Source of the DNA: Gammaproteobacteria bacterium
GTDB taxonomy: Bacteria > Pseudomonadota > Gammaproteobacteria > GRL18
DNA length: 23,195 nt
Direction: 5' to 3'
Assembly: GCA_030632625.1 (NCBI GenBank)
Contig: DAOVUK010000003.1
Coordinates: forward strand, 1-23,195
The position numbers were made by a program, and so were the translations under genes. The notes under the pieces were generated by a model that ran no database searches, was not told where the DNA came from, and saw only the letters and a list, made by a program, of their open reading frames with translations. The first letter of the stretch is position 1; each line of letters starts with the position of its first letter. Of the stretch, positions 1 through 19,152 are shown piece after piece.

Positions 1-3000
1 CACCGCTTTATCAATTAACCAGTCCAGCCCCCTGTCCACCAGCTCCCTTACCCGTTCAATCATTTCACCAATTTTACGGCCCAGACCACCCAGCCCTACC
101 TGATTTGCCAGGAAGCCAATAACAATTGGTACTGCACGGGCCAGTGAACCTTCCAGAAAACTGGCTGCACTTGCTACACTGCCCCTGGCGATTTCGGCGA
201 CGCCTTCGACAAAGGAATTAACAATTTCCAGCATTTCGCGTATATAGGCAATAAATGACTGGATAGCTTTATAGAAAGCGATAAAGCCATTGACCACCGC
301 CATGATCCCGGTGGGGTCCAGCATACTTAATAGTTTGACAGTTATTTGCTGGATGATACGCGTGACCACCCAGTTACGCACCGCATCCAGGACAATAGTC
401 CACAGGTTACTTAACTGCTCCTGAATATATTCCCAGATGGCTATCGGGCCCCGTGTCACTACATCAGAGACAAAGGTCCAGATGCCGGTGAGACGATCGA
501 GCATGCCTCGCATCCTGTCGACTTTATCCTGGCCAATTTTAGCGGCAAGTTTCTGGAATATACGATCGACGGATATTCCGAGGACGTCCAGGACAAAACC
601 CAGGATGGACTGAAAACTAAAGTCAGCTGGCGGAGATACACCGGCATCTTCAAGCTCTTTAAATAGCCAGCCCGTAATTCCATTCAGTAGATGTGTGGCA
701 ATGTTATCGAAAAACTTCACAAAACCAGTTTTAACGGCCCGTAGTAAATTCTTTAAAAAACCAATCGGGTCACGCTTGATTTCTTCAAAGGCCTGCAGGG
801 CTTTTTCGATGATATTGGAAATGAGCGCCACCGGAAAATTCATTAACTTCAGTGCCACTTCAATCACCAGTTTAATCACTTCACCGACAAAACTGATAAG
901 TCGTCCCAGGGGCTCGCCAAAAATACCCATGAGTCTTGCAAACGCGACAAAAGGAGCAGCAAGATCAGACAGCGAAAAACTTTCCCAGGCGCGAATAAAA
1001 AGTCCCTTAATGTATTCCCAGGTAAAATTCAGTGTGGCGATGGCGTTTTCGATACGGGTGGTTAAACGCGCAATGGCACCCGTCTGCTGCATTTCCTGAA
1101 ACTGCTCTTCGCCTCCATCCATTAATGCCATAAAACCATGAATAATATTTTCTGCACTGCGTTCTACCGGTTCATCGGAAAATGGGTCCTTGCCCAGAAT
1201 GACGGTGAGTAAAGGATAAGCCCGCGTGGTTCTTGCGTAGGCGACAAGCCGGCTAATTAAAGCATCCTTAATTAAGCTCAGAATTTTTATGCCGACTTCA
1301 ATAACAAAGTTAATAATTCTGAACGCGGGAGCGGCAAATGTTTCATAAATCTGGCGGAAGACACCGCCGGGATCTAACAAACTCTGGATACCAATCGATT
1401 CCCAGATACTCATAAACCCGGCCACCAGCACTTCCCAGGAAAGATTTAATCGCGCAACAGCGCCATCCAGCCAGTCCGCCGCTTTTTGTAAACTGCCGGA
1501 TTCTTCCATTTGCCTGAGTTGTTCGGCACCACTTTCCGAGAGCAGCATAAAACCTCGCAGCAAGGCGATGGGCGTACGTTCAACCACTTCACCGGAAATT
1601 GGATCGCGCCCGAGGATCACGGTTAAGAGCGGGTAAGCCGTGGTGTGTTCCTTGATGAAATTAATCAACGAATCAATCAGATAATTCTTTACGATTTCTA
1701 ATAGTTTGGCTGCAACATTAGTGGCAAATCGTATAATGCGCTGCACAGGTCCCTGAATAATATTCAGCAGGCGATCCATCACCGTGGGTATTCTGGCGGC
1801 GTCAGAAAGACCGAGGCTACTCCAGAATGCCGACAATTGCCCCGCTATCTCTGTCGGACTGATATCCAGTTCGTTAATTTGTTCATCCAGCCACTGAGCC
1901 GCCTCATCCAATGCACCCTCTTCTTCGAGCTTCTGCTTAAGCGAGGCACCATTGGGAATAATATCCAGACCGGCTTCAATAAAGTTACGGCCATTTCTTT
2001 CAACTTCACGGCCACTGATTGGATCACGGCCATTCACCACGGTAAACAGCGAATAACCGGGCATACTGCTGACGAAATCACTAGCCTTGTCTTTGATAAA
2101 ATTGATGGCATCGCCAATACTGTCACCAACCCACTCCACGGCATCACTCACCAGATCGGCTGCTGCACTAATGGGATTCCAGAAACGTTGAACCCGGGGA
2201 GAGGTGCTGCTAATGCTCGAAGGTGCTGCACGAACAACGCCACCCTGCTGCACAACATGGGTGGTTTCATGAGCCATTAAATGCACATCGGACTGAGACT
2301 GTCCCGCACCCAGCCAGATATCATTTTTATGGGTAAAGGCTTTGGCATTAATTGAGGCGGCTGCTTCGTGTGATGAGCTATCTTCATGCACACGCACCGC
2401 ACTTAGATCGACTCCCATGCCTGACTCAAGAATGCTTCTTACATCCGGACGTATCGATGAGCCGCTTGAAGGATTCTTGATGGCCTGAAATGCAGGCTGG
2501 ACTGTGGAATGGGATGATGATGGATTCGCTTTTACCTGAAGTTCTTCCTCTTCTTCTTCAGCCTGGCGCTGGATGAGTTTTGTTTGTATCGGCTCCTCTT
2601 CTTCCTCTTCAGGCTGGCGCTGGATTAACTTCGTTTGCAGCAGCTCCTCTTCTTCCTCTTCAGGCTGGCGCTGGATTAACTTCGTTTGCAGCGGCTCCTC
2701 TTCTTCCTCTTCGGCCTGGCGCTGGATTAACTTCGTTTGTAGCAGCTCCTCTTCTTCCTCTTCTGGCTGGCGCTGGATTAACTTCGTTTGCAGCAGCTCC
2801 TCTTCTTCCTCTTCTGGCTGGCGCTGGATTAACTTCGTTTGCAGCAGCTCCTCTTCTTCCTCTTCTGGCTGACATTGGAGTACTTTTTTCTGAAGCTGTT
2901 CATCGTCATTTGACTCAGCTGCAATATTTTGAATTCCCGGTGCAGCCAGTGAACCTGATATCAATGAAATAGCAGGAGCAGGTTGATTCGTTACAATGTG

Positions 3001-3189
3001 ATCCGCCACCCTGTCGGCTTCCTGCTCATAGGAATCATCAGGTTGTCCGATTGTCAGTTTAGCCTGCACAATCTGGCGAATATTATTTTGTTGTAAACGC
3101 TGGGCAGGTGCTAATGGTGCATGCACAGAAGAATGTGTCCTCCGTGTTGCAGATGCGGGTCTTTTTTCCTTTGTGGCAAAGGATTTCAT
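1..3189 (-). CDS. Giant eCIS-associated DUF4157 protein, 3' end beyond window
   Basis: The frame is open from ATG at 3189 (GGTGAG lies just upstream) to the left edge, giving at least 1063 residues with no stop. Residues about 49-65 (DDSYEQEADRVADHIV) are the typical opening of a DUF4157 domain. Residues about 104-216 are Gln/Glu-rich tandem repeats. The rest of the domain follows, with GVDLSAVRVHED and a metallopeptidase-like HETTH motif at 306-310 (AHETTHVVQQG). From residue 379 there are three repeats of about 140 residues, each opening with Y(P/S)LLTVILGRDPISGE-like sequence and continuing as amphipathic helices. After about residue 800 the chain is long, helical and hydrophobic. DUF4157 is a known eCIS-enriched domain, often on cargo or cargo-associated proteins. 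It is the last gene seen, 65 bp after the protease gene. A cargo role is inferred; whether HETTH is catalytic is unknown. Confidence 0.9.
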   Translation of the reverse strand, partial: MKSFATKEKRPASATRRTHSSVHAPLAPAQRLQQNNIRQIVQAKLTIGQPDDSYEQEADRVADHIVTNQPAPAISLISGSLAAPGIQNIAAESNDDEQLQKKVLQCQPEEEEEELLQTKLIQRQPEEEEEELLQTKLIQRQPEEEEEELLQTKLIQRQAEEEEEEPLQTKLIQRQPEEEEEELLQTKLIQRQPEEEEEEPIQTKLIQRQAEEEEEELQVKANPSSSHSTVQPAFQAIKNPSSGSSIRPDVRSILESGMGVDLSAVRVHEDSSSHEAAASINAKAFTHKNDIWLGAGQSQSDVHLMAHETTHVVQQGGVVRAAPSSISSTSPRVQRFWNPISAAADLVSDAVEWVGDSIGDAINFIKDKASDFVSSMPGYSLFTVVNGRDPISGREVERNGRNFIEAGLDIIPNGASLKQKLEEEGALDEAAQWLDEQINELDISPTEIAGQLSAFWSSLGLSDAARIPTVMDRLLNIIQGPVQRIIRFATNVAAKLLEIVKNYLIDSLINFIKEHTTAYPLLTVILGRDPISGEVVERTPIALLRGFMLLSESGAEQLRQMEESGSLQKAADWLDGAVARLNLSWEVLVAGFMSIWESIGIQSLLDPGGVFRQIYETFAAPAFRIINFVIEVGIKILSLIKDALISRLVAYARTTRAYPLLTVILGKDPFSDEPVERSAENIIHGFMALMDGGEEQFQEMQQTGAIARLTTRIENAIATLNFTWEYIKGLFIRAWESFSLSDLAAPFVAFARLMGIFGEPLGRLISFVGEVIKLVIEVALKLMNFPVALISNIIEKALQAFEEIKRDPIGFLKNLLRAVKTGFVKFFDNIATHLLNGITGWLFKELEDAGVSPPADFSFQSILGFVLDVLGISVDRIFQKLAAKIGQDKVDRMRGMLDRLTGIWTFVSDVVTRGPIAIWEYIQEQLSNLWTIVLDAVRNWVVTRIIQQITVKLLSMLDPTGIMAVVNGFIAFYKAIQSFIAYIREMLEIVNSFVEGVAEIARGSVASAASFLEGSLARAVPIVIGFLANQVGLGGLGRKIGEMIERVRELVDRGLDWLIDKAV
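800..2055 (-). repeat. Three ~140-residue protein repeats in the DUF4157 protein
   Basis: Units begin at residues 379, 519 and 658 (minus-strand positions 2055, 1635 and 1218), so the spacing is 140 and 139 residues. They open with YSLFTVVNGRDPISGREVER, YPLLTVILGRDPISGEVVER and YPLLTVILGKDPFSDEPVER. Each continues with a Glu-rich helix, a WLD or similar turn, a W-containing helix (FWSSLG, IWESIG, AWESFS) and a hydrophobic helix before the next unit. The DNA has diverged far more than in the 51-bp repeats, so the duplications look old. The segment before unit 1 (INFIKDKASDF) resembles the unit ends, suggesting a partial unit there. The end of unit 3 is approximate. Confidence 0.8.
2541..2879 (-). 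repeat. 51-bp tandem repeat coding Gln/Glu-rich 17-residue units
   Basis: Six copies of a 51-bp unit sit in register inside the DUF4157 gene. The marker tggcgctgga recurs on the + strand at 2564, 2615, 2666, 2717, 2768 and 2819, and a degenerate seventh copy follows near 2870. Each unit encodes 17 residues, LLQTKLIQRQPEEEEEE, with rare changes (P/A before the Glu run; LLQ, PLQ or PIQ). The array splits the DUF4157 domain, lying between its opening segment and its HETTH half. It is very acidic and probably disordered. Near-identity at the DNA level suggests recent expansion by slippage or recombination. Confidence 0.93.
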
Positions 3190-3254
3190 GGTCTCACCGA
3201 ATGATTTTATGAATGCCAGTGAAGATTAAACACAGCCACAGGCTCACGCTAAAT

Positions 3255-5525
3255 TTATTCATACACACAGTCAATCCCCCACGCATTTAATGTGCCGGTA
3301 TCCCTTGAAGCACTGTCGCTCACGTGTAATCGCCAACTGCCCATTATTTCGGTACCGAGCAGGGCTAACAATGTTTCATCAACACTGGTACTGTAGGTCA
3401 TCTTGATATCATGCCGGCTGCGACCGGTGCGATCATGCAATACAACTGCTACTCCTGATGGCGAAACCAGTACTACAAGTAAATCACCAATCCAGGTATG
3501 TGAAATATCCAGCGAAATATCCAGTTTGACGATACTACCCGATTCGCTAACGTCGATCAGGCTGTCAATGCCTGCAGAGCTGTTATCGGGGATGACTTGA
3601 TTGGCGGCCAACTGTTTGCTGAGTACTTTTTTCTCTGCTTTTGCGACAGACAGTTCCAGCTCCCAGAACACCAGCTTACCGGTATCCATGTCTGCATGAT
3701 CAGAGACTGAAAGCATCCAGTCACCCTGCACATTATCCCCCATAAATGCATTCAGATGTGGCGTTGAGTCCAGGTTGTATATCGCAAGCAGGTTATCACT
3801 GGAGCCACCCACACGATCATGCAAAACAACGGATTCATTTAACGGCGAAGTCAACATGACTCTCAGATCACCAATATAACTGTGTTCAATATCAATACCG
3901 ATATGAATATTTTTTAGCAAACCTGCGTCGGCTATATGCAGAACACTCTTTACACCCGCTGCCTGATTATCAGGTATGGCCTGATAGGGTGAAGTGTCCT
4001 GCTGAATAATACTGAATGCCTCATCCGGCTCACCGACACCCACCGCAGCCCAGGCATTTTTAATCGCGGCATACTCACTAGTATGTTCACCATGTATTTG
4101 TCGACAGGCATTCAATAATGCGTACCTGGCCTGCATGAATGTCCAGCGACTATCAGTCGCACTGCTTAAATAACTGGTCATGGCCAGATAAAATATCTGT
4201 TCCGCCTTATCTCTTCCGATGCCGTCAACAGCAATACCATGATGTGTACCACCAGCAACGATGAGGTAGGCTGCCTTGTTGGGTATACCGCTATTTGAAT
4301 GAAGATAGCCATTATCGTTTTTATCAGGATCGGGTTGTTCGCCTGCATCAAGTGCCAAAAAATCATCCATATGATCCGGCTGGCCATATTTGCCAGGCGC
4401 AGACAAATCCCTGAGTGCATCACCTGAACGAAATGGCGTGTAAACCCCTTCGCCCATTTTCCAGTCTGTAATTTCAGCCTCATTCGACACCATCACACCA
4501 AAGAAGTCGGCAAAGGATTCATCCAGTGCACCAGCTTCTTCAGCATACACAAAACGTGCAGTCCTCGAACTCACTGCATGGGTTAATTCATGACCGACAA
4601 CATCCAGCGCCAGCGCCAGTGGTGCAAATCGAATGCCGTCACCATCACCATAAACCATCTGCTTATACCAGTCAGTCCAGAAGGCATTATTGTAATTCTG
4701 TTTGTAATGCACGCTGGACACCAGATCAGCGCCATTGGCGTCATAACTATCTCGTTGGAAAGTCGTCAGGAAATAGTTGTATACCATTTCAGCATGATCA
4801 TGTGCCGCCTGCGCAATATGATCAGTGGACGACTGATCGCCCTCCAGTAATAGTTTGGCTTTTAAATTAGCAGCATTCTCTGCCGAATAGGTTAAACGTG
4901 AAACCACCCCACGGATGCGGGTGTGCTTTAATAGAATATTGCCAGAATGTGCATCAACGATGTGCAGGCTCGATGCCATATCCTGGCTTAAAATCCATTC
5001 AATTTCCCAGGCAAGATGCACAGTTTTGATTTCATCACGAAAAAGAATAAGTCGCACTTTTTTATCGGCAATCGCCTCCAGTGATTTTCCACTAAGCTGT
5101 AGCGCAGTTTCAATGGCTTGCTGCTCTGTAATACGTGGCTGTAGTGAAAGATCAAGTGCTGCCAGTCGGTAATCCTTATAGGCGATAACTTCACCCGCTG
5201 GATTAATATGCACCTGAGTGGAACCTTCGAGTACCGGTATGCCGTTTAATGTCTGGGCGAAATAGACATGACTAAAACCCTGTTTATCTTTCTCGGTATG
5301 TGATAGTTCCAGTGATTCACTTAAATCTTTGTGCAAATCCAGTAAACCAGCATAGTCTTTCAGAAAGACTGTTGCGATAACTTCAGCAGCTTCACTCGAT
5401 GGCTTGCTGAGTTTGCCCTTAATAAACCTGACAGTGTCACCAGGTTCATCCCAATAAAAATCATTCGTTTTATCGAGAGCCTGTAACTTTTTGACTGCCT
5501 GATCCTGTTTATCATTTAAAATCAT
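3255..5525 (-). CDS. M4 thermolysin-family metalloprotease with two P domains
   Basis: This is a zinc endopeptidase of 756 residues. Residues about 60-190 resemble an FTP/PepSY inhibitory propeptide. The catalytic domain has HELTH at 312-316, the third zinc ligand Glu336 in GALDESFADFFG (24 residues after the first His, as in thermolysin), and the catalytic His at about 409 in LHSNSGIPNKAAYL. All key residues are intact, so an active enzyme is expected. Two P/homoB-type beta domains follow at about 516-626 and 642-756, each with a VLHDR core and a G-W-L-VSD motif. I chose ATG at 5525 because AGAGGG precedes it; the frame extends to a TTG at 5615 that would overlap the previous gene by 56 bp with no clear ribosome site. 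No signal peptide is visible, which is odd for an M4 enzyme and fits delivery through the particle. It could instead be a maturation protease. Confidence 0.9.
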   Translation of the reverse strand: MILNDKQDQAVKKLQALDKTNDFYWDEPGDTVRFIKGKLSKPSSEAAEVIATVFLKDYAGLLDLHKDLSESLELSHTEKDKQGFSHVYFAQTLNGIPVLEGSTQVHINPAGEVIAYKDYRLAALDLSLQPRITEQQAIETALQLSGKSLEAIADKKVRLILFRDEIKTVHLAWEIEWILSQDMASSLHIVDAHSGNILLKHTRIRGVVSRLTYSAENAANLKAKLLLEGDQSSTDHIAQAAHDHAEMVYNYFLTTFQRDSYDANGADLVSSVHYKQNYNNAFWTDWYKQMVYGDGDGIRFAPLALALDVVGHELTHAVSSRTARFVYAEEAGALDESFADFFGVMVSNEAEITDWKMGEGVYTPFRSGDALRDLSAPGKYGQPDHMDDFLALDAGEQPDPDKNDNGYLHSNSGIPNKAAYLIVAGGTHHGIAVDGIGRDKAEQIFYLAMTSYLSSATDSRWTFMQARYALLNACRQIHGEHTSEYAAIKNAWAAVGVGEPDEAFSIIQQDTSPYQAIPDNQAAGVKSVLHIADAGLLKNIHIGIDIEHSYIGDLRVMLTSPLNESVVLHDRVGGSSDNLLAIYNLDSTPHLNAFMGDNVQGDWMLSVSDHADMDTGKLVFWELELSVAKAEKKVLSKQLAANQVIPDNSSAGIDSLIDVSESGSIVKLDISLDISHTWIGDLLVVLVSPSGVAVVLHDRTGRSRHDIKMTYSTSVDETLLALLGTEIMGSWRLHVSDSASRDTGTLNAWGIDCVYE

Positions 5526-5559
5526 CGTCTTTCCCTCTTCTGCAGGTTTACTTAGTAAC

Positions 5560-8500
5560 TCATATGATATCCATAATATTGGCTTCCTTACGAAGGATTC
5601 TTGAAATATGTTCAATTAATGCTTGTTCATTCATAGCAAGATTTCCAACAAATATGTCAAAATACGCTATTGTATAGGCAACCACATCGTCTTGATTGTT
5701 ACCCAGACGGAATTCATTGCCACTAAATTTAAGTGACCTGGCGATAAAACTGCTGCCCAGACCTAAAAAGATATTATCGCGAACAGATAATGACTCATAA
5801 GCAATTAATTGTAATTTGTTTTCCTTTACTCCAGTAACGACTTCCTGCAACTGTTGCATATTGCTTGATAAAACGGTGCTATAAACTGCATGTATCAGAT
5901 TATCATGTATATTCAAATAACCGTTATAGTCCAGATAATCATTTTCTTGTGCCCACGACAGTTTAAATTTCGCAACACTGTCAATATTTTTTGTTAAACC
6001 CCAGTTAAGGCCTACACCATCCGCCTGATCATTAAACAGGACAACATCGCCTTTAATCTCATTACTGGATATATCGCCTTCAACATGATTGGTCTCCAAT
6101 GCAAGAGCAACATCAATCGGTAATATCAATGCAGCCACCCTTCTGAAACGGTCAATTAATTTATCAATATCGTCTGCGTTTGCCGACTTGATATCTTCAT
6201 AGAAACTATTTACTTCAGTTTTTGGCCTAACCGAAATAAGGCTCATTGTTCGATCCAGTGTTCTTAGCGGGATAGACGGCCTGGAAGGTACTGGCGTTCT
6301 CCCAGGTATGGGTATCCCTGGTGGTCTGGAAGGAGTCGAGGGTGCAGGTGTCGATGGCGCTGAAGGTATTCTCCCTTCCAGCACCACGGCCCCGGTATGA
6401 CCAATATCTACTTCGATATCCGGTAATTTATTGATAAGCACCTCTTCACGTGCGGTAAAAAATTGTGTACGAGACGCAGCAGATAGTCCGACAATTTTTT
6501 CAGCCGCCACTTTTAGCTTTTCCTCAAATTCGGATTCATTATCATTAAGATTGTCGGCCCAAACCAATTCCAGTGCCAGATTGGCCTCAAGCGCTTCACC
6601 TCTCAGGATGTCTTTTTTTGGTTTGACTGCAGCAGATACTTCCTCATCCACACGACGCGCATCCATCAAGTTATTTTTCCAGGTAAGCATCATATTGCTG
6701 ACCGACACCACTGGTTTCCACTGATTATTTTCACCTCGGAATTTTCGGGAAAAGTTACAGTTATCAACAACACATTTTCCTATCTTTTTACTCGTAAGGA
6801 TAAGGTGGCCTGCAGCAGCTTTTTCTGAACTTATATCAGTAGCTGTACATGTAAGGTCACGCAAAATAATATCCATTGCCTGAAGCGATATAACATCCTG
6901 GATCGATACGATAGACGTACTCGAACCCTGACCAATGATTTTTATGCTGTTGTTAACAGATATATTCCAGGCTTTCTCTACACGGTGAGTACCCGGCAAC
7001 AAGCAGATATTGATGTCCTCCTTTTTTGATAACTTGTCAAATGCTTCATCCAGCGTTGTATATTCTCCACCTGGACCGACAGTCACCGCACAGCCACCAC
7101 CGGCTTTTCTGTCACAAAGAACTTTCAGTGCATCCTGAACAGATACCGCATCGTCCAGCTCACTGCATAAGGCTGTGTCTGTTTTATCCAGCGGTAAATG
7201 TGTCGCCTTGAAATCACAAAGTAATTTATCCAGCACCATATCAATTTTAACGGTAGTGCCATTTGCTATATCTTTAATTTCCGGCAGTAAAGAACGTAAG
7301 GTAGGCGATGGTACTGCTTCACAGGCTGGAATAAGATAACGTATATCGGTACTTTCAAGCCAGGCAAGCAAATCATCAATCGCTGACTGAACCGTATTCG
7401 GTTCAGTTAAATCTCCAATGACAGTCTGCTGCTCCTTAATGTCTTTCCATCTAGAAGCCTGGTTATTAGGATCGTAAGGAATTATTCCAGCATCCAGTTT
7501 GCATATCAGGTTCTGCAGGACATCATGAATAGTCGTATTTGTATTAATTCCAAGTCCTGATTTAACTGTCGGTATTAAGACACCTGATGGACAATCCTCT
7601 GGATAAAATGGAATATAGTTTGATCTTAAGTCACACAGTAAAGTATCAAGAACATCCTTAACTGTGACACTGCCATTGCCATCCCTGTCTGGCCATTGCA
7701 ACCCGGCATCACCATCAAACAGGGATTGCAGCGTAGGATGAGCTGCATCACCGCAACTCTGCTTATCATAAATCACCTGATCAGCGGTGATTAAATTCGC
7801 ATAAAAATAAACCGGAGGATGCACATCTTTATCTGCACCGCCGACATGATCGGGAATTACCAGGGTCGCTTTAACTCGATAATCGGCATCAGGCATGACA
7901 TTGGGTGTCCAGCGACACTCAGCAATACCTTTGTCACTGGTAACGGTGATGCCGCTTGCTGGAGCTAATGAACCACCACCAACGACTATTTCAAATCGTA
8001 CTTTGGCCCCTTGCACTGGATATTCACCATTGGCCACACCCACCCGCAAAGGCTGAGGTAAGGCTTCACCTGGCACCACCTCCTGGCCATCGCCTCCCGC
8101 CATAAACAAACGGGTCATTTCAGTTAATGCAGGAAAGGCATATTTACGATCTGCTTCAGGATTTGTATCCAGTTTATCAGTCGTCACTTCTCCAAGGGTC
8201 AGGTAATGATGCTCAATCCCATGCGGTGCTTGATGAGCAAGCAGTATCGTATTAGGTGTATGTTCAACCTCACGCACTTCAGCCAACCAGAAATCCCCCG
8301 CAACGAATGCATGATTTAATTCAAGCTCTAATTTCAGGGCGTCGAGATTGATGCTTAATGTAGTTCCATCGATGTCGGCAAAGCCTGGTGCAGTGGCTCC
8401 CGGATGGCTAATATCGAATTGTGAATTAATGACCCAGCTGCCATTTTTTTTCAGTGTGCAATAACCATCCCATCGGCGTACAAAATCACGTGGCGGAGCG

Positions 8501-9381
8501 GCAGGATAATCTGCAGTTAATAACTCCCTTTCAGGTGAAAAACCAGATACCCGATGTACTCCCAAATGTTTTTCACTGGTGTCATCAAAAAACTCGTAGA
8601 TCCAGTTATCATTGGTAAACGAACCTGGCGGCACAATGGCCTCAGCTTCTTTATTTTTCAGTGCATACTGCTCAGCCGCATTCTCACTTGACCATTTTAA
8701 TGTGATTTCATCAGGACTATCGGCATCGCCTTTTACATCGTGCACTTCCACTCGAAACAGGTAATTACCAATTCTCGATTCTATATCCAGTTGATCCGCA
8801 CAGGGATCACAGGAATCGGGCTGGGTGGTTTTATTCAATAAGGTAACAATGAGTTCCGCATTGCCTTTGTGAGGATTTTTACTCGACTGTTCGGGATCCA
8901 CATCACTGCATTTAATCTGACACAACACCTGTTTACGACTACAGGTGTCGGCCCCATGCAGCGCCTTATCACGCAGGCGTTCATCTAACAGCTGGGTAAC
9001 CGTGCGCTCCCAGACGTCGGCATACACAAAATAATGATCCGCTGGTAATGGGGCTGATAAAGGAAAATCAGTTTGATCTGTATATTCAACATTATCCGTG
9101 AGATCTGCCGCTATACCATCCACATAGATATGACCCGCCTCAATGGCGAGTGGATCAGCAACTGCATTTTTTATTATCTTCAGTGCACGGTGACGCGGCA
9201 TACCACCATAACTACCCTGCGTGCTGCCCACCACATCCTTGAGCGCATCGTTTAATCGCAGCTTGATAATTTCCACCAGTTCATTCCAGTCGGCATCTGT
9301 AAGCATGCGTCCCTGCTGTTGATATACCCCTGAATAATGTTTCAGTGGTTGATGGCTATCCCTGGAAATCTCGGTTTTCAT
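5560..9381 (-). CDS. DUF6519 mosaic beta-helix protein, likely eCIS baseplate periphery or fibre
   Basis: The protein has 1273 residues. The N-terminus (SRDSHQPLKHYSGVYQQQGR, then LTDADWNEL) matches the DUF6519 family common in eCIS loci. Residues about 444-520 look like an Ig/invasin-type domain (QPLRVGVANGEYPVQGAKVR). About 565-576 is an EF-hand/dockerin-like loop (DRDGNGSVTVKD), the start of a run of about five helical repeats (DVLDTLLCDL, DVLQNLICKL, AIDDLLAWL, MVLDKLLCDF, DALKVLCD) to about 760. A pectate-lyase-like beta-helix begins at about 762 with GPGGEYTTLDEAFDKL. A Pro/Ser/Thr-rich linker lies at about 1003-1037, and more beta-helix follows. Start is ATG at 9381 with GGGGGA upstream, overlapping the previous stop as ATGA. 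I infer a structural role, possibly receptor or surface binding; no catalytic residues are evident. Confidence 0.85.
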   Translation of the reverse strand: MKTEISRDSHQPLKHYSGVYQQQGRMLTDADWNELVEIIKLRLNDALKDVVGSTQGSYGGMPRHRALKIIKNAVADPLAIEAGHIYVDGIAADLTDNVEYTDQTDFPLSAPLPADHYFVYADVWERTVTQLLDERLRDKALHGADTCSRKQVLCQIKCSDVDPEQSSKNPHKGNAELIVTLLNKTTQPDSCDPCADQLDIESRIGNYLFRVEVHDVKGDADSPDEITLKWSSENAAEQYALKNKEAEAIVPPGSFTNDNWIYEFFDDTSEKHLGVHRVSGFSPERELLTADYPAAPPRDFVRRWDGYCTLKKNGSWVINSQFDISHPGATAPGFADIDGTTLSINLDALKLELELNHAFVAGDFWLAEVREVEHTPNTILLAHQAPHGIEHHYLTLGEVTTDKLDTNPEADRKYAFPALTEMTRLFMAGGDGQEVVPGEALPQPLRVGVANGEYPVQGAKVRFEIVVGGGSLAPASGITVTSDKGIAECRWTPNVMPDADYRVKATLVIPDHVGGADKDVHPPVYFYANLITADQVIYDKQSCGDAAHPTLQSLFDGDAGLQWPDRDGNGSVTVKDVLDTLLCDLRSNYIPFYPEDCPSGVLIPTVKSGLGINTNTTIHDVLQNLICKLDAGIIPYDPNNQASRWKDIKEQQTVIGDLTEPNTVQSAIDDLLAWLESTDIRYLIPACEAVPSPTLRSLLPEIKDIANGTTVKIDMVLDKLLCDFKATHLPLDKTDTALCSELDDAVSVQDALKVLCDRKAGGGCAVTVGPGGEYTTLDEAFDKLSKKEDINICLLPGTHRVEKAWNISVNNSIKIIGQGSSTSIVSIQDVISLQAMDIILRDLTCTATDISSEKAAAGHLILTSKKIGKCVVDNCNFSRKFRGENNQWKPVVSVSNMMLTWKNNLMDARRVDEEVSAAVKPKKDILRGEALEANLALELVWADNLNDNESEFEEKLKVAAEKIVGLSAASRTQFFTAREEVLINKLPDIEVDIGHTGAVVLEGRIPSAPSTPAPSTPSRPPGIPIPGRTPVPSRPSIPLRTLDRTMSLISVRPKTEVNSFYEDIKSANADDIDKLIDRFRRVAALILPIDVALALETNHVEGDISSNEIKGDVVLFNDQADGVGLNWGLTKNIDSVAKFKLSWAQENDYLDYNGYLNIHDNLIHAVYSTVLSSNMQQLQEVVTGVKENKLQLIAYESLSVRDNIFLGLGSSFIARSLKFSGNEFRLGNNQDDVVAYTIAYFDIFVGNLAMNEQALIEHISRILRKEANIMDII

Positions 9382-11666
9382 GGTGTTCCCCCATTACTCA
9401 AATTCGTATTATCAACGGGTACTTGCAACAGTCCCTTGTCGTATATCAGTACCGGCTCTATTCCGACGGGCAAAAACTCGCGCATTTTATCCAGCATGGC
9501 TTCAGCCTTAAGGGCATAATAGCCATGATGGTAGGCACCCATTTCACCTCCGTCTTCGGCACCAAATCGAATGGCTTTAGCAGCATGTAAGGCAAGTACA
9601 CCATAACCATATTCCCCATATTGGGCGTCACGTGCTGTAATGAGTTCCATGTCCAGCAGATCCTTACAATATGCATATTTATCAAACACCGGTTTTTCTA
9701 AGGTATTGCTTCTCAAACGTAAATTTCCTGCTTTATCGACTAGCTGTAACGCCCTCGCGAGTTTTTTACTAACACTCTCCTCAGGCTGGCTTTTTATATC
9801 TTCCAGAAACGCTCCCGGGATGGACGAAAAGCGCAGGCAATTTAAAAAGTGATTAAGCGTGCTATCCTCAGGAAGCTTATGTACACCCGATATATCACCA
9901 GCAAAAATACAGTCACTGGCCTGAAGGTATTTACATCTCGCTGAGAGCATTACCGTGCAGTATTCTAGTCGAGTGAGGCCATGCTCAACGTGAATTGCCT
10001 GAAACAGGCTGTCAGTTGCAGACAATGAGGCAAGCGCATTTCCCTCGCTATTCAAAGGTGTTTCAACAATTAGCTTCGGCACTGCAGAACGTATCAATAT
10101 CAATAGCCCGCTAGTCACCGTTAAATCATCTTGAAAAATAATATCGCTTAAAGGATATCCGCCATCATCAGGTAACGACAATGAAGCAATACCTTTAATC
10201 AGTACCGGCCGGTTTTTTCGACCCCGGTGAAAATAGCCCATCTCTGTCTGATCACTCGCGCCTGCATAAATAGATTCTGCTGTATCGGCACCAAGTACTG
10301 CACGGGCAGCAAGCGAATTAGTTGCCGCTATAAACGCAGGCGTATCAGTGACCTGATCGTAACCATAAACACTGTCCGTATTCCGTTGATGACTTTTTAT
10401 ACTCATCTTTTTAGCATCCGTACTCAGCGGTGCATTTTCAGGTGTACGTGAATACTCAATACTGCCCGTAATTTCTGTGCCATTAATATTGTTGAAAATA
10501 CAATCGACGGCCTGCACCGATGTGCTGATATGGGCAATATTAAGTACCGTGCAGCTATCCAGCTTGACCACTCCCTGTGAAGAAAGAGTAACAAACAGAC
10601 AATCACTGGCAGTCAGTACAGGTTCATCAGTTGATGGTGTGGTGACGCTTACGATGTTCGCTTCAACTGATTGCAGGTTCAGGCTGCCGCCACTCACGAC
10701 TGATAATTCTGTGAGAAAATTTAAACCTTCGATCCGATAAGGTCTGGCGGGTTCGAGCATATCCATTTCGCTAATCTCGATAATCCGATGCGTTTTATTT
10801 CGAATAACCCATACTCCGTTTTCATCTTTTTCTTCAATTAAATGATCATAGCGAGAATCTGTTCTCTCACTCCATTTCAGCTGTATACTGTCGAGTGGAA
10901 ACAAACCTGTGGGTGACGGCGCAAACACCAGCAGACGTTTATGGTGATAAAGCCCTTTACCTGCATCAATGGTTCGCACATCAACGGTACGACGTGATAC
11001 ATCATCAAAGCTGCCGGGAAAACACGGTACACCATGATAATTAGCCTGACGCCAGCTTTGTTGTATGCCGGCAAACTTTGAAATCTGCGTAGCGGGATTA
11101 GTGGCTAGTGACTCCACCGCACGTGATGGACGACGAAGATCCACCATTGTCACGGGTAGACCTGGATGTCGCGCAGCTTCGGATGGAATATCCTTATCCA
11201 GTTGCAGTGTGTCATCCCAGGCTTGCAGTGGAATAAGTGGCATAGCAATGCGTGGCGTCATTGCCACTCGCTTCCAGCCTTCCTGTATTACCACTTCCAC
11301 CTGGCCGACAGCTTCTGCAATTTCCTCGGCACATAGTAGTGTGCCTTTGCGTTGTCGCCAGGAAATCGCGCGATCAACTTCGGCGTGCTTGCCGGCAGAA
11401 TCCGGCGAAACGATATTAACGGCAAGTAACCGGGCAAAATAGGGCAATAACCAGTCCTGACTGGACGCGGGTAACGCATCTTCCAACTGTTGTTCCAGGG
11501 TGGCATGGATCAGATCCAGCAGATGACCATGGGCATCCAGGTACCTTGCTAAATCTTCTATGTTTGAGGCACTTGCTCTGGCTTGCTCACGGTCACGCGT
11601 GCGATACACTGCCGGCAGTAATTGATAGAGTTGTTCGCCTAGTCTGGAATCAAAGGTATAACTCAT
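9378..11666 (-). CDS. gpI-like baseplate/tail protein with beta-helix extension
   Basis: The protein has 762 residues. The first ~150 (YQLLPAVYRTRDREQ, then DWLLPYFARLLA and SWRQRKGTLLCAEEIAEAVG) match the P2 gpI-like tail protein family found in eCIS baseplates, where gpI acts with gpJ at the wedge-to-fibre connection. From about 300 to 640 the sequence is short beta strands with recurring turns (ASDCLF, AVDCIF, ATDSLF, ASDCIF), typical of a right-handed beta-helix. Two copies of a short EMG-(Y/F)H-x-G motif appear, one central (TEMGYFHRG) and one near the C-terminus (GEMGAYHHG). P2 gpI itself is much shorter, so the extension is an added module. SD GAGGAG lies upstream; ATGA overlaps join it to both neighbours, so translation is probably coupled. 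Family call is good; the function of the extension is inferred. Confidence 0.85.
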   Translation of the reverse strand: MSYTFDSRLGEQLYQLLPAVYRTRDREQARASASNIEDLARYLDAHGHLLDLIHATLEQQLEDALPASSQDWLLPYFARLLAVNIVSPDSAGKHAEVDRAISWRQRKGTLLCAEEIAEAVGQVEVVIQEGWKRVAMTPRIAMPLIPLQAWDDTLQLDKDIPSEAARHPGLPVTMVDLRRPSRAVESLATNPATQISKFAGIQQSWRQANYHGVPCFPGSFDDVSRRTVDVRTIDAGKGLYHHKRLLVFAPSPTGLFPLDSIQLKWSERTDSRYDHLIEEKDENGVWVIRNKTHRIIEISEMDMLEPARPYRIEGLNFLTELSVVSGGSLNLQSVEANIVSVTTPSTDEPVLTASDCLFVTLSSQGVVKLDSCTVLNIAHISTSVQAVDCIFNNINGTEITGSIEYSRTPENAPLSTDAKKMSIKSHQRNTDSVYGYDQVTDTPAFIAATNSLAARAVLGADTAESIYAGASDQTEMGYFHRGRKNRPVLIKGIASLSLPDDGGYPLSDIIFQDDLTVTSGLLILIRSAVPKLIVETPLNSEGNALASLSATDSLFQAIHVEHGLTRLEYCTVMLSARCKYLQASDCIFAGDISGVHKLPEDSTLNHFLNCLRFSSIPGAFLEDIKSQPEESVSKKLARALQLVDKAGNLRLRSNTLEKPVFDKYAYCKDLLDMELITARDAQYGEYGYGVLALHAAKAIRFGAEDGGEMGAYHHGYYALKAEAMLDKMREFLPVGIEPVLIYDKGLLQVPVDNTNLSNGGTP

Positions 11667-14600
11667 GGCGCATACTCCTCAACAGTTACATCCAGGATTG
11701 ATGGCGTGCCCTTTGCTTCTGTATCCAGGTAGATTACCGTACTATCATCTTCTGCCTGAATAACCGACAGATGCTGGTCATTATTCAGCACACAAATAGA
11801 GTTTTCGACACCCTCGATAAACTCAACTACTTTGTAGACTTCACTCAGGTAGAGATTCTCGCCAAGCTTACGGTTCTTTAAGGCAAAATGTTCCAGTAAT
11901 GCAATAAACACAGCATTTTCAACATCTGCGGCAACATACGCATCAAGTTTAATTCTCAGTGTTATAGAAAGACTAAATCGTACCCGAATACAATCGTCAA
12001 CTGTAATCTGGACACCCGGCATGGCATGCTTCTGCAGGAATGCTTGTACTTCATCTTCAACCGCTTCGGATGTGACACCACCGGCCGGGACAATGACTAC
12101 TCTGACCGATTCAGTTCTACCGCCATGAAGAATCTCACTGTATGCCTTCGCCTGCCAGATACTACTTTGTGCCGCAGCCAGATGAGAAAAATCTGATAAT
12201 GAAACCGCACGTTCAAGTGCCAGTAAAGTGGGTGGTGCATTTTCACGCAATGATGATATATCTTCCATATCCCCCCCACCGGCTGCTGCAAGGGGTTGAT
12301 GCACTTGTTTAAGTAAAGGATGAGGATTTACCGCTTTATTCAGTTCACCTACAGCAAGGTTACCGACAATCCCTGAGCCTACCCGATAGCGCACTCGAAT
12401 ATTGTTTTTTCCGGATGGCAGACGACGACCGTTTTCACTATCGCCAAACATAATTTTTACAGTAGCCTGCTCGGTCATTCGAATGGCATAATGATGATCC
12501 GATGGTGCTGAATCTTTAAGGCTCGATACCTGCTGCCAGATCCTGCCTTCTACTTCAACGTCTATCGCAGCGGCAACGCCGGAGCTCATGGTTGCATCAG
12601 CGGTAAATGACACGTTTTCCACCTGCAGGGTAAATTCCTGGTTAGTTTTTGCAGCATCACCACTGCCAATAATTTTGGACGGTTTATTCTCACCGTGACC
12701 GGCAAGCACAACATTAGCCCGAATGATTAATTGGCCCTTGCTGCAATTCTTTATCGAAGGATTAACAGTAATGACATTACCATTAATATTTTCAATTTTT
12801 GAAATAACTGGCACTTTGCCACAACCATCCATGATGACTGTGTGCCCAATGTTCAGGCTCTCCGGCAGGATTTCCAGTTCAATCTCATCTTCAATTAATG
12901 AAGTATTCAGTTCTGCACCTTCAGCAATCAGTTCATCACGAAAATCGGCATACACTTTTCTGAGTTCTTTATTGCCTAACAGACCTGCAAAATTTAACGA
13001 GAAGGTTTCTGTTTTATCTTCATCGGTAAACCAGTTAATAGCGCTTACCTTAAGCGCCCTGAGACCATCCGGAAAATCGCCCACCACCCAGTCACCCACA
13101 CCTATTTTAGAATTACCGTTAAACACATACAGTGGTTCACTAGCGGCAACGACGGCTTTAACGACTGGCGCTTTTGAGATAGCAAGCAGTGGTCCCTTGC
13201 CGATGATATCTTCTGTCAATGTCTGGAACAGCACGGTGGCTTCTTCACCGTCGGGGACGCTTAGCATCTTTTCTAGTGCCGCAATTATTGGCGTTTCTTG
13301 ATTTTCTGAAACTGGTGTTTCTGGATCAGGTTTTAATGACGAGTTCCACTTGACCACATTGCCAATCTCAAATGGTATAATGTTGCCATCCTCATCTATG
13401 ATATTGCCATCCTCATCTATTGGTATGATGCTGCCATCCTCATCTATGATGTTGCCATCCTCATCAACATCTACCACATAAGTCTTTAATTCATTTAGCA
13501 ATCCGAATAGATCTGTGGCTGCTTCAAGTGGATTTTCTGCGCCCTCAAGCAGTCCGCCAAATGGCATGCCTTTAATCACAATCTCACCGGTACTGGGAAT
13601 CACCATCACCCCAATACTCAGCATTAATTCAACGGCCGCTTTTACAAGATCCAACGGCAACAGAGGAGACGGAAATAAAAAAGTGCCAATTGCAGGCAGT
13701 GAAGCGGGAGGCAGCAATCCACCGCCACCACCACTGCTATCAGTCATACTTTCTGTAATAACCTTGCGAAGAGTGAATATTGGTTCGGGAACGCCTGCTT
13801 TAGAAGGCACTTCTATTTTAGGCTCTACAGCCTCTACAGCCGGTGGTGCATCAAATTCACTGCCCAGCAATACCAGCGCCTCATAATCTGCGGGTAATAC
13901 CGAACCTTCTATTGCGCGTAATTCATATAGTTTTTGACCAGGCTTTGGTAGTGGAGCATTCACCTGTAAACGTAAATCCCATTTATCCACTTCTATTATT
14001 TTTCCATGTCGCCATTGTGTATAGGCTGTGCATAAAATGGCATCTTCAATGATCGCCTGCTCAAGCGAAGGGGATAAGCTCCGAGGCGCAGGCAATGGAT
14101 TCAGCTGAGATTTTAGTGATGCTATCTTTTTTTCACCAATTAACGCACTTTCAGTTTTATCAATAACTTTTTCGCCGATTTCATTAAAAATACGGATACG
14201 TAAATGCCCACCTGTCAGAACCACATTAACCAAAGCGCTGCCATGGGTTACAAGTTCATCGTGTATCGACAGGTCAAAATCTATCTTCCAGCCAACAAAA
14301 GAGTCTGCGCTCAGTCCGTGGGGTGTTTCAGTACGAACAACATCTGTGCCATTTAACCAGCATTCACGTTTCCAGCGTGCTGACACTCTTAGCCGTGTCT
14401 CGCCCTTGTTCCATTGATTCAACCAGTCGTATTGCACAATACCGGGTAATAAATGAATGACATTAGTTTGTTTATCTATGCCTGATATGGTTGCGGCTTC
14501 TGCTTCATCTGATTTAAGATTATTCTCATTATTTAACTCACGATAGACCAGGGCAATTTCACCGGGACTGAGTTGTGAACTTGATTTAACATACCACGAT

Positions 14601-15307
14601 GTGATTAACGCACCTGTAACAATTTCTTCAGTGGAGTCTGAACCACCGCCATTGTTATCAGCCGGTAACACTGCAGGATCGTCCGATTTATTCCAGCCTT
14701 TAGTACGAAGTTCATTCAGTGCCGGATCTACAAACACATCTTCCAGTGTTTCAAAAATCACTTTATCTGCCCCGACCAGTGGACTATTTTTTATTTGAAA
14801 GCCTTTGCCAATCGTGCCGATATAGTTATCCTTTGCAATGAACACCAGTCGGGTCGAGGCAGATGCCGGAGGTGCCGGGTGGTAGTCCAGCATCTCTACC
14901 AGTCGGCGCACGTGATCCCACTGTGTGGCAGTCCCCAGATAAGCTTCGTTTGCATAAGCATCGGCATACTCGGTTAATATATGGCAGGAACGTACAAATG
15001 TTCTGCTGATCTCCCATGCCCAGTCACGTCTATCCTGATGGTAAGTTTCCAGCAAGCGTTTTTGTATACGACTTAAGCGTTCCTGCCGTTGCAACATTGT
15101 TTCATTTTCGGATTCAGGCGGCTGTTCGTTCTGTGGAATTTCTTCTGCGGGGTTTAGCCACTCACACAAACCTGTTTGCGGATCTTTAAATCGTTTGACC
15201 AGTTGTTGTCGCAGGGTTTCCAGGTATGTAACGGCGTTGCCATTCACATACCTGAAACGATTCAGGCCTGCGCGATTCCAGCGTGTTAGATCCTTTGGCG
15301 CGTTCAT
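11663..15307 (-). CDS. Very long baseplate J-like protein (second gpJ homologue)
   Basis: The protein has 1214 residues and belongs to the putative baseplate assembly (gpJ/T4 gp6-like) group; in Afp/PVC the two gpJ-like proteins Afp11 and Afp12 build the baseplate wedges. The N-terminus (SCHILTEYADAYANEAYLGT, then RRLVEMLDYHP) and C-terminus (VVIVPAGGVTSEAVEDEVQA, then SLSITLRIKLDAYV) are conserved. The middle is not typical: residues about 521-610 hold a Gly-rich stretch (SSGGGGGLLPP) followed by a hydrophobic segment (LVKAAVELMLSIGVMVIP), then an acidic DEDGNII repeat at about 613-645. Start is ATG at 15307, overlapping the previous stop as ATGA, with GGAGG slightly far upstream. The insert may be a surface loop or membrane-active element; that is a guess. 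Confidence 0.87.
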   Translation of the reverse strand: MNAPKDLTRWNRAGLNRFRYVNGNAVTYLETLRQQLVKRFKDPQTGLCEWLNPAEEIPQNEQPPESENETMLQRQERLSRIQKRLLETYHQDRRDWAWEISRTFVRSCHILTEYADAYANEAYLGTATQWDHVRRLVEMLDYHPAPPASASTRLVFIAKDNYIGTIGKGFQIKNSPLVGADKVIFETLEDVFVDPALNELRTKGWNKSDDPAVLPADNNGGGSDSTEEIVTGALITSWYVKSSSQLSPGEIALVYRELNNENNLKSDEAEAATISGIDKQTNVIHLLPGIVQYDWLNQWNKGETRLRVSARWKRECWLNGTDVVRTETPHGLSADSFVGWKIDFDLSIHDELVTHGSALVNVVLTGGHLRIRIFNEIGEKVIDKTESALIGEKKIASLKSQLNPLPAPRSLSPSLEQAIIEDAILCTAYTQWRHGKIIEVDKWDLRLQVNAPLPKPGQKLYELRAIEGSVLPADYEALVLLGSEFDAPPAVEAVEPKIEVPSKAGVPEPIFTLRKVITESMTDSSGGGGGLLPPASLPAIGTFLFPSPLLPLDLVKAAVELMLSIGVMVIPSTGEIVIKGMPFGGLLEGAENPLEAATDLFGLLNELKTYVVDVDEDGNIIDEDGSIIPIDEDGNIIDEDGNIIPFEIGNVVKWNSSLKPDPETPVSENQETPIIAALEKMLSVPDGEEATVLFQTLTEDIIGKGPLLAISKAPVVKAVVAASEPLYVFNGNSKIGVGDWVVGDFPDGLRALKVSAINWFTDEDKTETFSLNFAGLLGNKELRKVYADFRDELIAEGAELNTSLIEDEIELEILPESLNIGHTVIMDGCGKVPVISKIENINGNVITVNPSIKNCSKGQLIIRANVVLAGHGENKPSKIIGSGDAAKTNQEFTLQVENVSFTADATMSSGVAAAIDVEVEGRIWQQVSSLKDSAPSDHHYAIRMTEQATVKIMFGDSENGRRLPSGKNNIRVRYRVGSGIVGNLAVGELNKAVNPHPLLKQVHQPLAAAGGGDMEDISSLRENAPPTLLALERAVSLSDFSHLAAAQSSIWQAKAYSEILHGGRTESVRVVIVPAGGVTSEAVEDEVQAFLQKHAMPGVQITVDDCIRVRFSLSITLRIKLDAYVAADVENAVFIALLEHFALKNRKLGENLYLSEVYKVVEFIEGVENSICVLNNDQHLSVIQAEDDSTVIYLDTEAKGTPSILDVTVEEYAP
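13374..13470 (-). repeat. Tandem DEDGNII-type acidic repeat in the long gpJ-like protein
   Basis: Four near-identical copies of an eight-residue motif, DEDGNII or DEDGSII followed by D or P, are encoded back to back at about residues 613-645 (VDVDEDGNIIDEDGSIIP, then IDEDGNIIDEDGNIIP). On the + strand the core ttgccatcctcatctat or ctgccatcctcatctat recurs at short spacing. The D-x-D-G-N pattern resembles calcium-binding loops, but no full EF-hand can be claimed. It sits right after a hydrophobic segment of the same protein. Confidence 0.85.
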
Positions 15308-16509
15308 CCTTTACGGCCTCCATGTAACTTGAGGCGGTAATAACCGGTTTCAGGTTTATCCGCTTCATTATTACAGACCGCCACCTCCAGTCCGGCGAGA
15401 GAAATAAAACCGTCTTCTGCTCGATCCGGATACTGTCCACCAATGCGTTTGAAACGGTTCAGACAGACATGTTCAATGCCATCCAGTGCCATCAGTGCCT
15501 GGATAATATCACTGGCATAAAGGTCTTCACCAAAACCAAGCTGACCGGGTTCGAAAAATCCTTCCGGCCCGTGCCCCAGCACCTGACTAATGACATGATG
15601 CATTTCGGACTGAAAAAAATTGGCCGCCAGGCTGACCGAAATTGACATATAAATACCGACATAGAGAGGATCCTCCAACACCACTTCCTGCCCTGCCATT
15701 CGAAAAGCATCAATATAAGGTCGCAGAATCATGCGCACACTGGGTTGCTGAGATGCATCAAAATTCGGCGATTTAAGCCCGATACCCTGATGGAAATTAG
15801 CAATTTTATCTTTCAGTTCCTGACTGTATTCAATGGCGGGAGGATCATCGGGTGCTGGTTCTGGATTCAGATCGAGTTTGATATTTTTCCAGGCAATCAC
15901 CGCCAGATGAACAGTAAACCATGAGCCGCTCCATGCACTCCATGCATGGGCATGCAGCACAAGTGGATGTTCACGAATACGCAATGCATAATCCTCCGTA
16001 GTGACCATACGTTTCTGTGTGTGAATATTTCTTGGTCCTGCCTGCTTAGCCTGATCCATGGCATGAGGATTAGCCCGCCAGTAATCTTCAAGGGCTTTTA
16101 TGGCCGCATCGCCCTGTAAATCCTCCTTAATATGATCTTTCTGCAAGGCGACAGAGACAGCATCATAACCAATAAAACTCAATAGCTGGCGAACGGTTTC
16201 AGGTCGCCTGGCAGTTTCCAGATAAGCTTCCGTTGTCACTCTGTCGAGCATGTCGGATAACTGATCCAGAACACTGGCCATGACTTCTACCAGTACCACT
16301 TCCAGATCCGCCGGTGTCCATCGTGTTCGTTCTGGAAAGCGTGCAGACAATTCTTCCAGCATAAACATTCTAAAGTCATCATAATCACGAACACGCCAGT
16401 CAAAATCATCCCCGGCATCAGCCAGAGCGGTGGGCAGATGTACTTCCCGTGTACCACAATCCGGACAGCTTCCCTGATAGTTAAGTTGCAGGCGTGGTGT
16501 TTCAGCCAT
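15304..16509 (-). CDS. Baseplate J-like protein (first gpJ homologue)
   Basis: The protein has 401 residues, a usual length for the shorter gpJ-like eCIS baseplate protein. Residues 15-18 carry a single CPDC motif. The conserved N-terminal region follows (DWRVRDYDDFRMFMLEEL, RTRWTPADLEVVLVEVMA, DRVTTEAYLETARRPETV), then a long helical middle and a C-terminus with GFGEDLYASDIIQALMALDG. It should pair with the downstream 1214-residue homologue to form the wedge heterodimer around the spike, with the gp25-like protein as clamp. The start is ATG at 16509, with GGAG about 11 bases upstream, overlapping the gp25-like gene by 8 bp; its own stop overlaps the next start as ATGA. Family assignment is firm; the exact Afp11/Afp12 equivalence is inferred from order. 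Confidence 0.88.
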   Translation of the reverse strand: MAETPRLQLNYQGSCPDCGTREVHLPTALADAGDDFDWRVRDYDDFRMFMLEELSARFPERTRWTPADLEVVLVEVMASVLDQLSDMLDRVTTEAYLETARRPETVRQLLSFIGYDAVSVALQKDHIKEDLQGDAAIKALEDYWRANPHAMDQAKQAGPRNIHTQKRMVTTEDYALRIREHPLVLHAHAWSAWSGSWFTVHLAVIAWKNIKLDLNPEPAPDDPPAIEYSQELKDKIANFHQGIGLKSPNFDASQQPSVRMILRPYIDAFRMAGQEVVLEDPLYVGIYMSISVSLAANFFQSEMHHVISQVLGHGPEGFFEPGQLGFGEDLYASDIIQALMALDGIEHVCLNRFKRIGGQYPDRAEDGFISLAGLEVAVCNNEADKPETGYYRLKLHGGRKG

Positions 16510-16894
16510 TACTATTCTCCGCTACGATAAATGACTGTGATTCCTGTTTATTGATGGCGGCGAGTCTATAAGAAATCAGAATAATTAATTTGCCTTGTTC
16601 ACTTTTAATGTCGATGTTAAGCGTCCTTGGATCAACTTCACCATGCAGCGCATCAGCAAGCGAAGTACTTAACTGTTTTTGTGTGATATTCCATAGCACC
16701 GCATTATTGGGTTCAAACACCAGCCTGCGTATACCTACGCCAAATTCTGGACGAAATACGCGCTCTTTCGGACTGGTGAATAACACCTGCTCAATTTGTT
16801 GATAAACATGTTCAGAACGCGAACTGTTTTTTGGGCCATCGCTGCCCACTGAAAATGGAAATTTCAAATACTGTGTTGTACTCAGGTCTGACAT
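16502..16894 (-). CDS. gp25-like baseplate wedge protein (Afp9/TssE type)
   Basis: The protein has 130 residues, the usual length for T4 gp25/GpW-lysozyme-fold baseplate proteins. It has the family core: KERVFRPEFGVGIRRLVFEP at about residues 43-62, followed by the LWNITQKQLSTSLADAL helix and a strand region ending LIILISYRL. In contractile systems this protein clamps the gpJ heterodimers and helps start sheath assembly. It has no gp25 lysozyme activity by family knowledge. Start is ATG at 16894 with AGGAG upstream; 13 bp separate it from the spike gene, and its 3' end overlaps the gpJ-like gene by 8 bp. Confidence 0.93.
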   Translation of the reverse strand: MSDLSTTQYLKFPFSVGSDGPKNSSRSEHVYQQIEQVLFTSPKERVFRPEFGVGIRRLVFEPNNAVLWNITQKQLSTSLADALHGEVDPRTLNIDIKSEQGKLIILISYRLAAINKQESQSFIVAENSNG

Positions 16895-16907
16895 ACAAAT
16901 CTCCTGT

Positions 16908-17729: not shown

Positions 17730-17731
17730 TA

Positions 17732-18850: not shown

Positions 18851-19152
18851 CGTCTTGCTCCGGCTTCAACCATTCTGGGAATAAGAACTGTTTCACCCAC
18901 GTTTTCACTTAATGTTAAATCAGCAGCAAATATAATTTGTGGATTGGCATCCAATAATCGCCACCACTTACGGCTATCGTTATAAAAATACAGGGCGAGA
19001 AGATCCAGACGGTCCCCATCTTTAACCGTGTATTCAAGTACACCTGTCGCACGCACGATACTCCGTGCGCGAGTCCCTGGAAACAACCTTAGTTGCGCAT
19101 TATCCACGGAAAATAATTCCGCATTGTGGTAGCGCGATCCTTTTACCGGCAT
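18847..19152 (-). CDS. LysM-domain tail protein X-like
   Basis: The protein has 101 residues with one LysM domain at about 31-77 (VLEYTVKDGDRLDLLALYFY, then WRLLDANPQI). Small LysM proteins like this are usual between adaptor and hub genes in eCIS and resemble P2 gpX; Afp7 and T4 gp53 carry comparable LysM modules. It probably helps anchor the tube/hub interface inside the baseplate. It could in principle bind peptidoglycan, but position favours a structural role. GGAG precedes the ATG, and the stop overlaps the next start by 4 bp. Confidence 0.88.
   Translation of the reverse strand: MPVKGSRYHNAELFSVDNAQLRLFPGTRARSIVRATGVLEYTVKDGDRLDLLALYFYNDSRKWWRLLDANPQIIFAADLTLSENVGETVLIPRMVEAGARR

Follow-up and report, generated by a model that had tools for sequence, protein, structure and literature searches.

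Which proteins eCIS particles carry is largely unknown, and the locus described here raises the question of what a thermolysin-type (M4) protease without a visible export signal does inside an eCIS operon. The gene lies in a 23,195-nucleotide stretch of a gammaproteobacterial contig (the window). Our tentative answer, to which we assign a probability of about 40%, is that its product is a candidate eCIS-delivered protease.

The protease gene occupies exactly positions 3255–5525, as given in the original prediction, and lies on the minus strand, a detail absent from that prediction, with its ATG at 5525 and its stop at 3255; the product comprises 756 aa (83 kDa). Every element of the intact M4 zymogen that had been claimed (FTP, HELTH, Glu and His ligands, twin P domains) was confirmed by Pfam and alignment. 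Pfam matches above cut-off were FTP (E 9e-13), Peptidase_M4 (5e-28), Peptidase_M4_C (1e-44) and two P_proprotein stretches (3e-38 for the whole protein). Along the minus strand, a propeptide region of approximately residues 1–200 (4926–5525; the boundary is our own) includes the FTP motif at residues 71–116 (5178–5315) and a weak PepSY-like stretch at residues 131–198 (Pfam PepSY E 0.006, below cut-off). It is followed by a thermolysin-type catalytic domain of approximately residues 205–497 (4035–4913), delimited by Pfam, PDB sequence match, alignment and structure match, and by two P domains at approximately residues 534–626 (3648–3926) and 662–754 (3264–3542), both found with Pfam and our P-domain model. 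Within the catalytic domain, the HELTH motif lies at 4578–4592, the Glu ligand at 4518–4520 and His409 at 4299–4301, with ligand names that follow thermolysin.

The active site is fully conserved: H312, E313, H316, E336, D340 and H409 are invariant in 116 of 116 aligned sequences, that is, the window protein and 115 of its best 120 relatives after removal of five fragments (one of the 115, P0002, equals the window protein except at 5 positions). E177 and E187 of thermolysin, which we take to be calcium ligands, are both replaced in the window alignment. Thermolysin was the top sequence match among solved structures (E 1e-76). An AlphaFold2 model based on a 39-sequence alignment reached a mean pLDDT of 83.6 and a pTM of 0.82, with values of about 58–79 (blocks of ten) at residues 250–330 and below 50 at residues 360–369. 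Its first match among PDB structures was again thermolysin (1kei, E 2.6e-26, 40% identity), and lower-ranked matches included the vibriolysin propeptide chain 3nqz_A, 2vqx, an Aeromonas serine protease, Kex2 and furin; the part of the model covered by each of these matches is our reading. With the HExxH zinc motif, the downstream Glu ligand, the catalytic His and the thermolysin fold all present, the protein belongs to M4, and its domains together with the intact active site predict a latent thermolysin-type protease.

The surroundings of the gene are those of an eCIS operon. The protease had been placed between DUF6519 and DUF4157 genes, and Pfam supports this position: upstream lies the gene of a 1273-aa DUF6519 protein (5560–9381, minus strand; PF20129, E 7e-19) and downstream that of an eCIS_core/DUF4157 protein (1–3189, minus strand; PF13699, E 2e-21), which is open at the contig end and also has a weak pre-toxin TG match (PF14449, E 1.5e-6). 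Gaps of 34 bases to the DUF6519 gene and 65 bases to the DUF4157 gene separate the protease from its neighbours. The region at 9378–23138 (minus strand) holds eCIS-type genes with Pfam matches to baseplate J, gp25, a spike OB domain, CIS_tube, AAA ATPase and Pvc16, as well as weak matches to tail-protein-I and tail-X. Three further ORFs have no Pfam match, namely one of 401 aa (second baseplate position), one of 372 aa (gpD-like by position) and one more; such labels are ours, and their only support is blastp similarity to ORFs at further eCIS loci. Of the genes that mark an eCIS locus, tube, spike, gp25, baseplate J, AAA ATPase, Pvc16 and DUF4157 are all present in the window. None of the scanned ORFs of this 23-kb contig, whose end falls inside the operon, matched a sheath gene. 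All 14 genes that we count in the window share the minus strand, overlaps of 1–8 bases occur at 7 of the 13 junctions, and no terminator-like site was found on the coding strand in 2900–9500, the single such site being on the opposite strand. Two of the genes contain repeats. In the DUF4157 gene, a 51-base tandem repeat of 6.3 copies (2549–2871) encodes a repeated acidic segment, and the middle part of the translated protein (1–3189) has three variants of a segment resembling YPLLTVILGRDPISGEVVER; short tandem repeats were also seen inside the large baseplate-J gene (13373–13473).

We then examined the start site and the missing signal peptide, using an ad hoc measure that calls a stretch signal-like if a 12-residue Kyte-Doolittle mean exceeds 1.9 within the first 45 residues. 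The best such mean in the window protease is -0.23. By the same measure, a signal-like stretch occurs in 0 of 111 M4-family sequences (the best 120 relatives minus 9 that are short or lack an initial Met), whereas ordinary M4 proteins at other loci have one in 55 of 61 cases (L009–L081; first 70 residues read; 73 loci, of which 12 gave no ORF under the motif filter). The start itself is conserved, with 109 of 116 aligned sequences beginning at or ahead of the window Met1, 108 of these within 11 residues of it, and 7 beginning later. A leader from an upstream start was considered and rejected, as the TTG at 5615 overlaps DUF6519 and the Met1 start is conserved. An RBS-like AGAGGG is seen ahead of the ATG (5533–5538, minus strand). 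The claim that the enzyme lacks a signal peptide was therefore upheld at the level of hydropathy, including against an alternative true start. As judged from these sequences, the listed family as a whole has no visible signal peptide. Since family members in genomes in which no eCIS_core was found are leaderless as well, the leaderless state alone does not point to cargo.

How does this enzyme compare with known M4 proteases? With thermolysin and bacillolysin it shares the catalytic domain, HELTH, the Glu and His ligands and the FTP propeptide motif, but it differs from them in having no visible signal peptide, the usual M4 route of export, and in its two C-terminal P domains. Protealysin-like proteases have a short propeptide without FTP, whereas the window enzyme has a propeptide of about 200 residues of the FTP type as well as P domains. 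It resembles protealysin in being an M4 enzyme without a visible signal peptide whose location is predicted from sequence to be intracellular and whose model matches the protealysin precursor structure 2vqx. As protealysin is a known intracellular exception, the missing leader does not exclude membership in M4. No gene for emfourin, the inhibitor of protealysin, lies directly downstream, where the 65-base gap is too small; the operon is open at the contig end. For protealysin of Serratia itself, a possible role as an effector in competition systems has been suggested (PMC9505478).

To what extent does the M4 family occur at eCIS loci? A protein search returned at least 1562 M4-family matches, the best 120 of which were examined. 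At E 1e-120 or better, family genes could be placed in 1 of 398 genomes of the window's phylum (the window itself), in 2 of 395 genomes in the phylum of genome G435 and in 8 of 100 genomes of the family Methanosarcinaceae; together with a gene in G434, this gave 12 placed genes, a set outside which the closest relatives (60–87% identity) fall. Only two of the 12 lie in or beside an eCIS cluster, namely the window gene and one in a Methanosarcina genome (G891; L109, L140), where the M4 protease is found at the end of the cluster, 1.3 kb past an eCIS_core gene and at a distance of about 22 kb to gp25. The remaining ten do not, two of them being near contig ends (G434, G436). Two genomes (G865 and G435) carry eCIS_core on contigs other than that of the protease, and no eCIS_core was detected at E 1e-5 in the remaining eight genomes, G915 included, which may be incomplete; G434 and G581 nevertheless have gp25 matches of some kind. 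Among the 100 Methanosarcinaceae genomes, 8 have the protease, 12 have eCIS_core and 2 have both, which amounts to no association (Fisher P 0.25). A restriction of the family to eCIS was rejected on these grounds. The survey thus places the window gene and that of G891 at eCIS clusters, but the tie originally suggested for the wider family largely falls, the closest relatives excepted, because most placed homologues are found elsewhere.

The genomic sites of these relatives are relevant to a different explanation, according to which the window gene encodes one of the widespread leaderless P-domain proteases, has a role unrelated to eCIS, either intracellular or after release by lysis, and came into the operon by chance. 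Besides the ten placed genes outside eCIS clusters, it is favored by a stable gene site in Methanosarcina: a lipoprotein-like gene accompanies the protease in each of the stretches fetched (7 of 7), and 6 of 8 stretches (L004 counted) have a membrane-like gene of 124 aa; G891 is included in both counts. Since eCIS-linked G891 and its unlinked relatives have these flanking genes in common, the link in G891 may be due to chance, and the eCIS may have arrived there next to an older protease gene. This conserved site lowered our estimates for delivery and, slightly, for the P-domain module proposal discussed at the end, and raised that for a chance passenger. Repeated flanks were also found in bacteria, with a SapC gene on one side of the protease and a Der-type GTPase on the other in both G435 and G581, and the groups concerned are large, with at least 1562 matches for M4, 2318 for M6 and at least 5703 for S8. 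Against this explanation stand the operon-like spacing of the window gene, which is embedded between the DUF6519 and DUF4157 genes, and the three other genomes described below, in which P-domain proteases of S8 or M6 type lie within or close to eCIS loci. Overall, we regard it as possible, though doubtful.

Several further observations were made around M4-family genes. In G435, T6SS genes of the VasE/TssK and DotU families lie near the M4 P-domain protease (L003 17321–19395; L141), and none were found in the stretch around its relative in G581 (L105). In the Methanosarcina genome G915, an AAA ATPase gene of eCIS type, broken into pieces, lies at a distance of about 7 kb to the M4 protease (L179 14495–15501; L112 1–1274). 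M4 and S8 P-domain proteases are close to each other in one Methanosarcina genome (L106 8945–13993), and a second such pair (P0073 and P0249) may share one contig. A genome of the same genus as the window (G013) encodes a short M4 protein in which no signal peptide is visible and which we read as protealysin-like (L115 9365–10468). A scan of genome contigs yielded at least 80 loci, of which 3 of 80 match over the full protein length with at least 50% identity and the rest at lower identity or in part, so that members may be missed. No plasmid record covered 80% of the protease; 100 plasmid records had partial matches below 60%, and among the 15 listed most were annotated as M4 metallopeptidases. 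Viral contigs gave no match with the single-protein query, four distant M4 relatives (33–37% identity) with the alignment query, and no match for the M6 or the S8 group.

Leaderless proteases with related P domains but other catalytic heads were observed in or near eCIS loci, and this is the new point of our analysis. In a genome of the same genus as the window (G008, L113), a subtilase (S8) with two P domains and no visible signal peptide is encoded between a DUF4157 gene and a CIS_tube gene; its gene spans an assembly gap, and this eCIS locus, which has both sheath and tube, is not close to that of the window (tube 23% identity). In G435, a Desulfobulbaceae genome (L135), a protease with two P domains and no visible signal peptide is flanked by DUF4157 genes. 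Its own Pfam matches are P domains only, while an identical protein from Desulfobulbaceae is named as M6 family and many relatives have Peptidase_M6. G855, a Methanosarcinaceae genome (L172–L174), encodes an M6 relative (Peptidase_M6, E 7e-5), likewise with two P domains and no visible signal peptide, 7.6 kb before the sheath gene that opens the eCIS cluster. By the ad hoc hydropathy measure, a signal-like stretch is present in 0 of the 120 M6 relatives listed and in 1 of 117 S8 relatives (3 of the best 120 were left out). Exactly two P domains were counted with our own model in 119 of 120 M4 and 120 of 120 M6 sequences; the S8 relative in L106 has one. Mean P-domain identity between the M4, M6 and S8 groups is 35–51%, compared with 23–30% to three P domains of M4 proteins from other loci, a small comparison set found with the P-domain model of the first kind. 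In a P-domain tree, long-branched outgroups were placed within the ingroup, and the tree therefore has no bearing on module transfer. No N-terminal sequence common to the three groups was seen. Our literature search, supplementary tables apart, brought up no paper that describes P-domain proteases of M4, M6 or S8 type in eCIS loci.

As a next step, we analyzed the linkage of P-domain proteins to eCIS_core in 59 eCIS_core-positive genomes (29 from the phylum of the window, 17 and 12 from the two other groups, and G008). P-domain matches were present in 10 of these (22 rows, 15 proteins by our own count). With the window and G008 left out, 3 of 13 P-domain proteins (G435, G855, G891) lie within 20 kb of eCIS_core, a cut-off chosen after the data had been seen, versus 0.14 expected for random genome positions (P 0.0003). 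The numbers were 2 of 13 within 5, 10 and 15 kb (P 0.0007, 0.002 and 0.005) and 3 of 13 within 50 kb (P 0.004). Without G435, G865 and G891, which had been reached through the M4 family, 1 of 9 remained within 20 kb (P 0.075). The excess near eCIS_core is suggestive, and not firm, as it depends on the cut-off and on how the genomes were reached. No P domain was found in 42 further stretches around eCIS_core matches (12, 17 and 13, some ended by contig ends; 18 of the 29 window-phylum genomes, with weaker matches, were left out), the G855 M6 gene being located just outside its stretch. P-domain proteases are thus uncommon at eCIS loci.

This scarcity bears on the idea that the protease is an in-cell maturation enzyme, trimming the DUF4157 protein or some other component of the particle before assembly or in its course, without being delivered itself. 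A cytoplasmic location would fit, as would the weak pre-toxin TG match in the adjoining DUF4157 protein, but 49 of the 59 eCIS-positive genomes have no P-domain protein at E 1e-5, which argues against a general maturation factor, and it is unlikely that three unrelated catalytic head types would serve one cleavage job. We consider such a role improbable. Least probable of all is a protease on the particle exterior that binds through its P domains and breaks down the surface of the target to aid docking: P domains also occur as accessory parts in other proteases (Kex2, furin and the Aeromonas serine protease among the structure matches) and the gene follows DUF6519, taken as structural, but the protein has no fibre or baseplate fusion.

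Delivery by the particle remains our preferred explanation. It draws on the domains, the intact active site, the conserved leaderless start, the operon position and the parallel P-domain proteases at some eCIS loci. Without a visible export signal, the protease would stay in the cytoplasm, and its propeptide would hold the enzyme latent until delivery. Most likely, it would be loaded into or onto the eCIS particle, perhaps with the adjacent DUF4157 protein as a bridge; the two P domains may stabilise the protease, or bind a target or a particle component. After delivery to a target, removal of the propeptide would allow cleavage of proteins there. Published work provides precedents for such loading factors, both of which have counterparts in the window as an AAA ATPase gene and the adjoining DUF4157 gene. 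One paper describes DUF4157 as a core domain of eCIS (PMC8213781), a DUF4157 protein of Streptomyces lividans binds the neighbouring effector, which lacks that domain (PMC13277306), and the AAA ATPase of Photorhabdus is required for loading and was reported to unfold cargo (PMC11495950). Several points speak against delivery, among them the relatives outside eCIS clusters, the few cases behind the linkage and the lack of an N-terminal sequence common to the M4, M6 and S8 groups. In addition, there is no aromatic residue among the first eight, contrary to a published trend (PMC11297309), and a folded multidomain protein of 83 kDa would probably need unfolding to fit the tube. The original prediction had read the missing leader as fitting either particle cargo or an internal processing enzyme. 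The intact site and the position in an eCIS operon next to DUF4157 agree with this, but the leaderless state is family-wide and most placed relatives occur outside eCIS clusters.

A comparison with known eCIS cargo gives a similarly mixed picture. DUF4157 neighbours are a feature of a published effector classifier, no Sec signal is expected of effectors, and protease or peptidase annotations apply to about 2% of predicted eCIS-associated toxins (EATs), a total of 46 proteins (PMC11297309). The window protease resembles EATs in its location in an eCIS operon, its DUF4157 neighbour and the absence of a visible Sec signal, but has no DUF4157 domain of its own (Pfam), and its loading and toxicity are putative. 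The AlgoCIS cargo Cgo1 has putative metalloprotease motifs, of which its growth inhibition is independent (PMC8894135), and the Streptomyces DUF4157 protein Sle2 binds Sle1 (PMC13277306). In these systems, too, cargo is tied to DUF4157; unlike the window enzyme, the proteins are not described as thermolysins in the portions of these two papers available to us (PMC8894135, PMC13277306).

Intracellular M4 enzymes (protealysin), eCIS proteases as a category and DUF4157 as an eCIS core domain are already known. A more far-reaching proposal, which we consider rather unlikely, is that contractile injection systems of bacteria and archaea carry signal-less proteases built from a related C-terminal P-domain module and swappable M4, M6 or S8 heads, with the P domains, and not an N-terminal tag, as the common element for loading or target binding. 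If these proteins are unrelated to particles, they represent large families of latent, signal-less P-domain proteases for which a role is still to be found. If, on the other hand, the three head types with their common P-domain tail are delivered, this tail would provide a recognisable mark of a cargo class and a loading module used in both archaea and bacteria.
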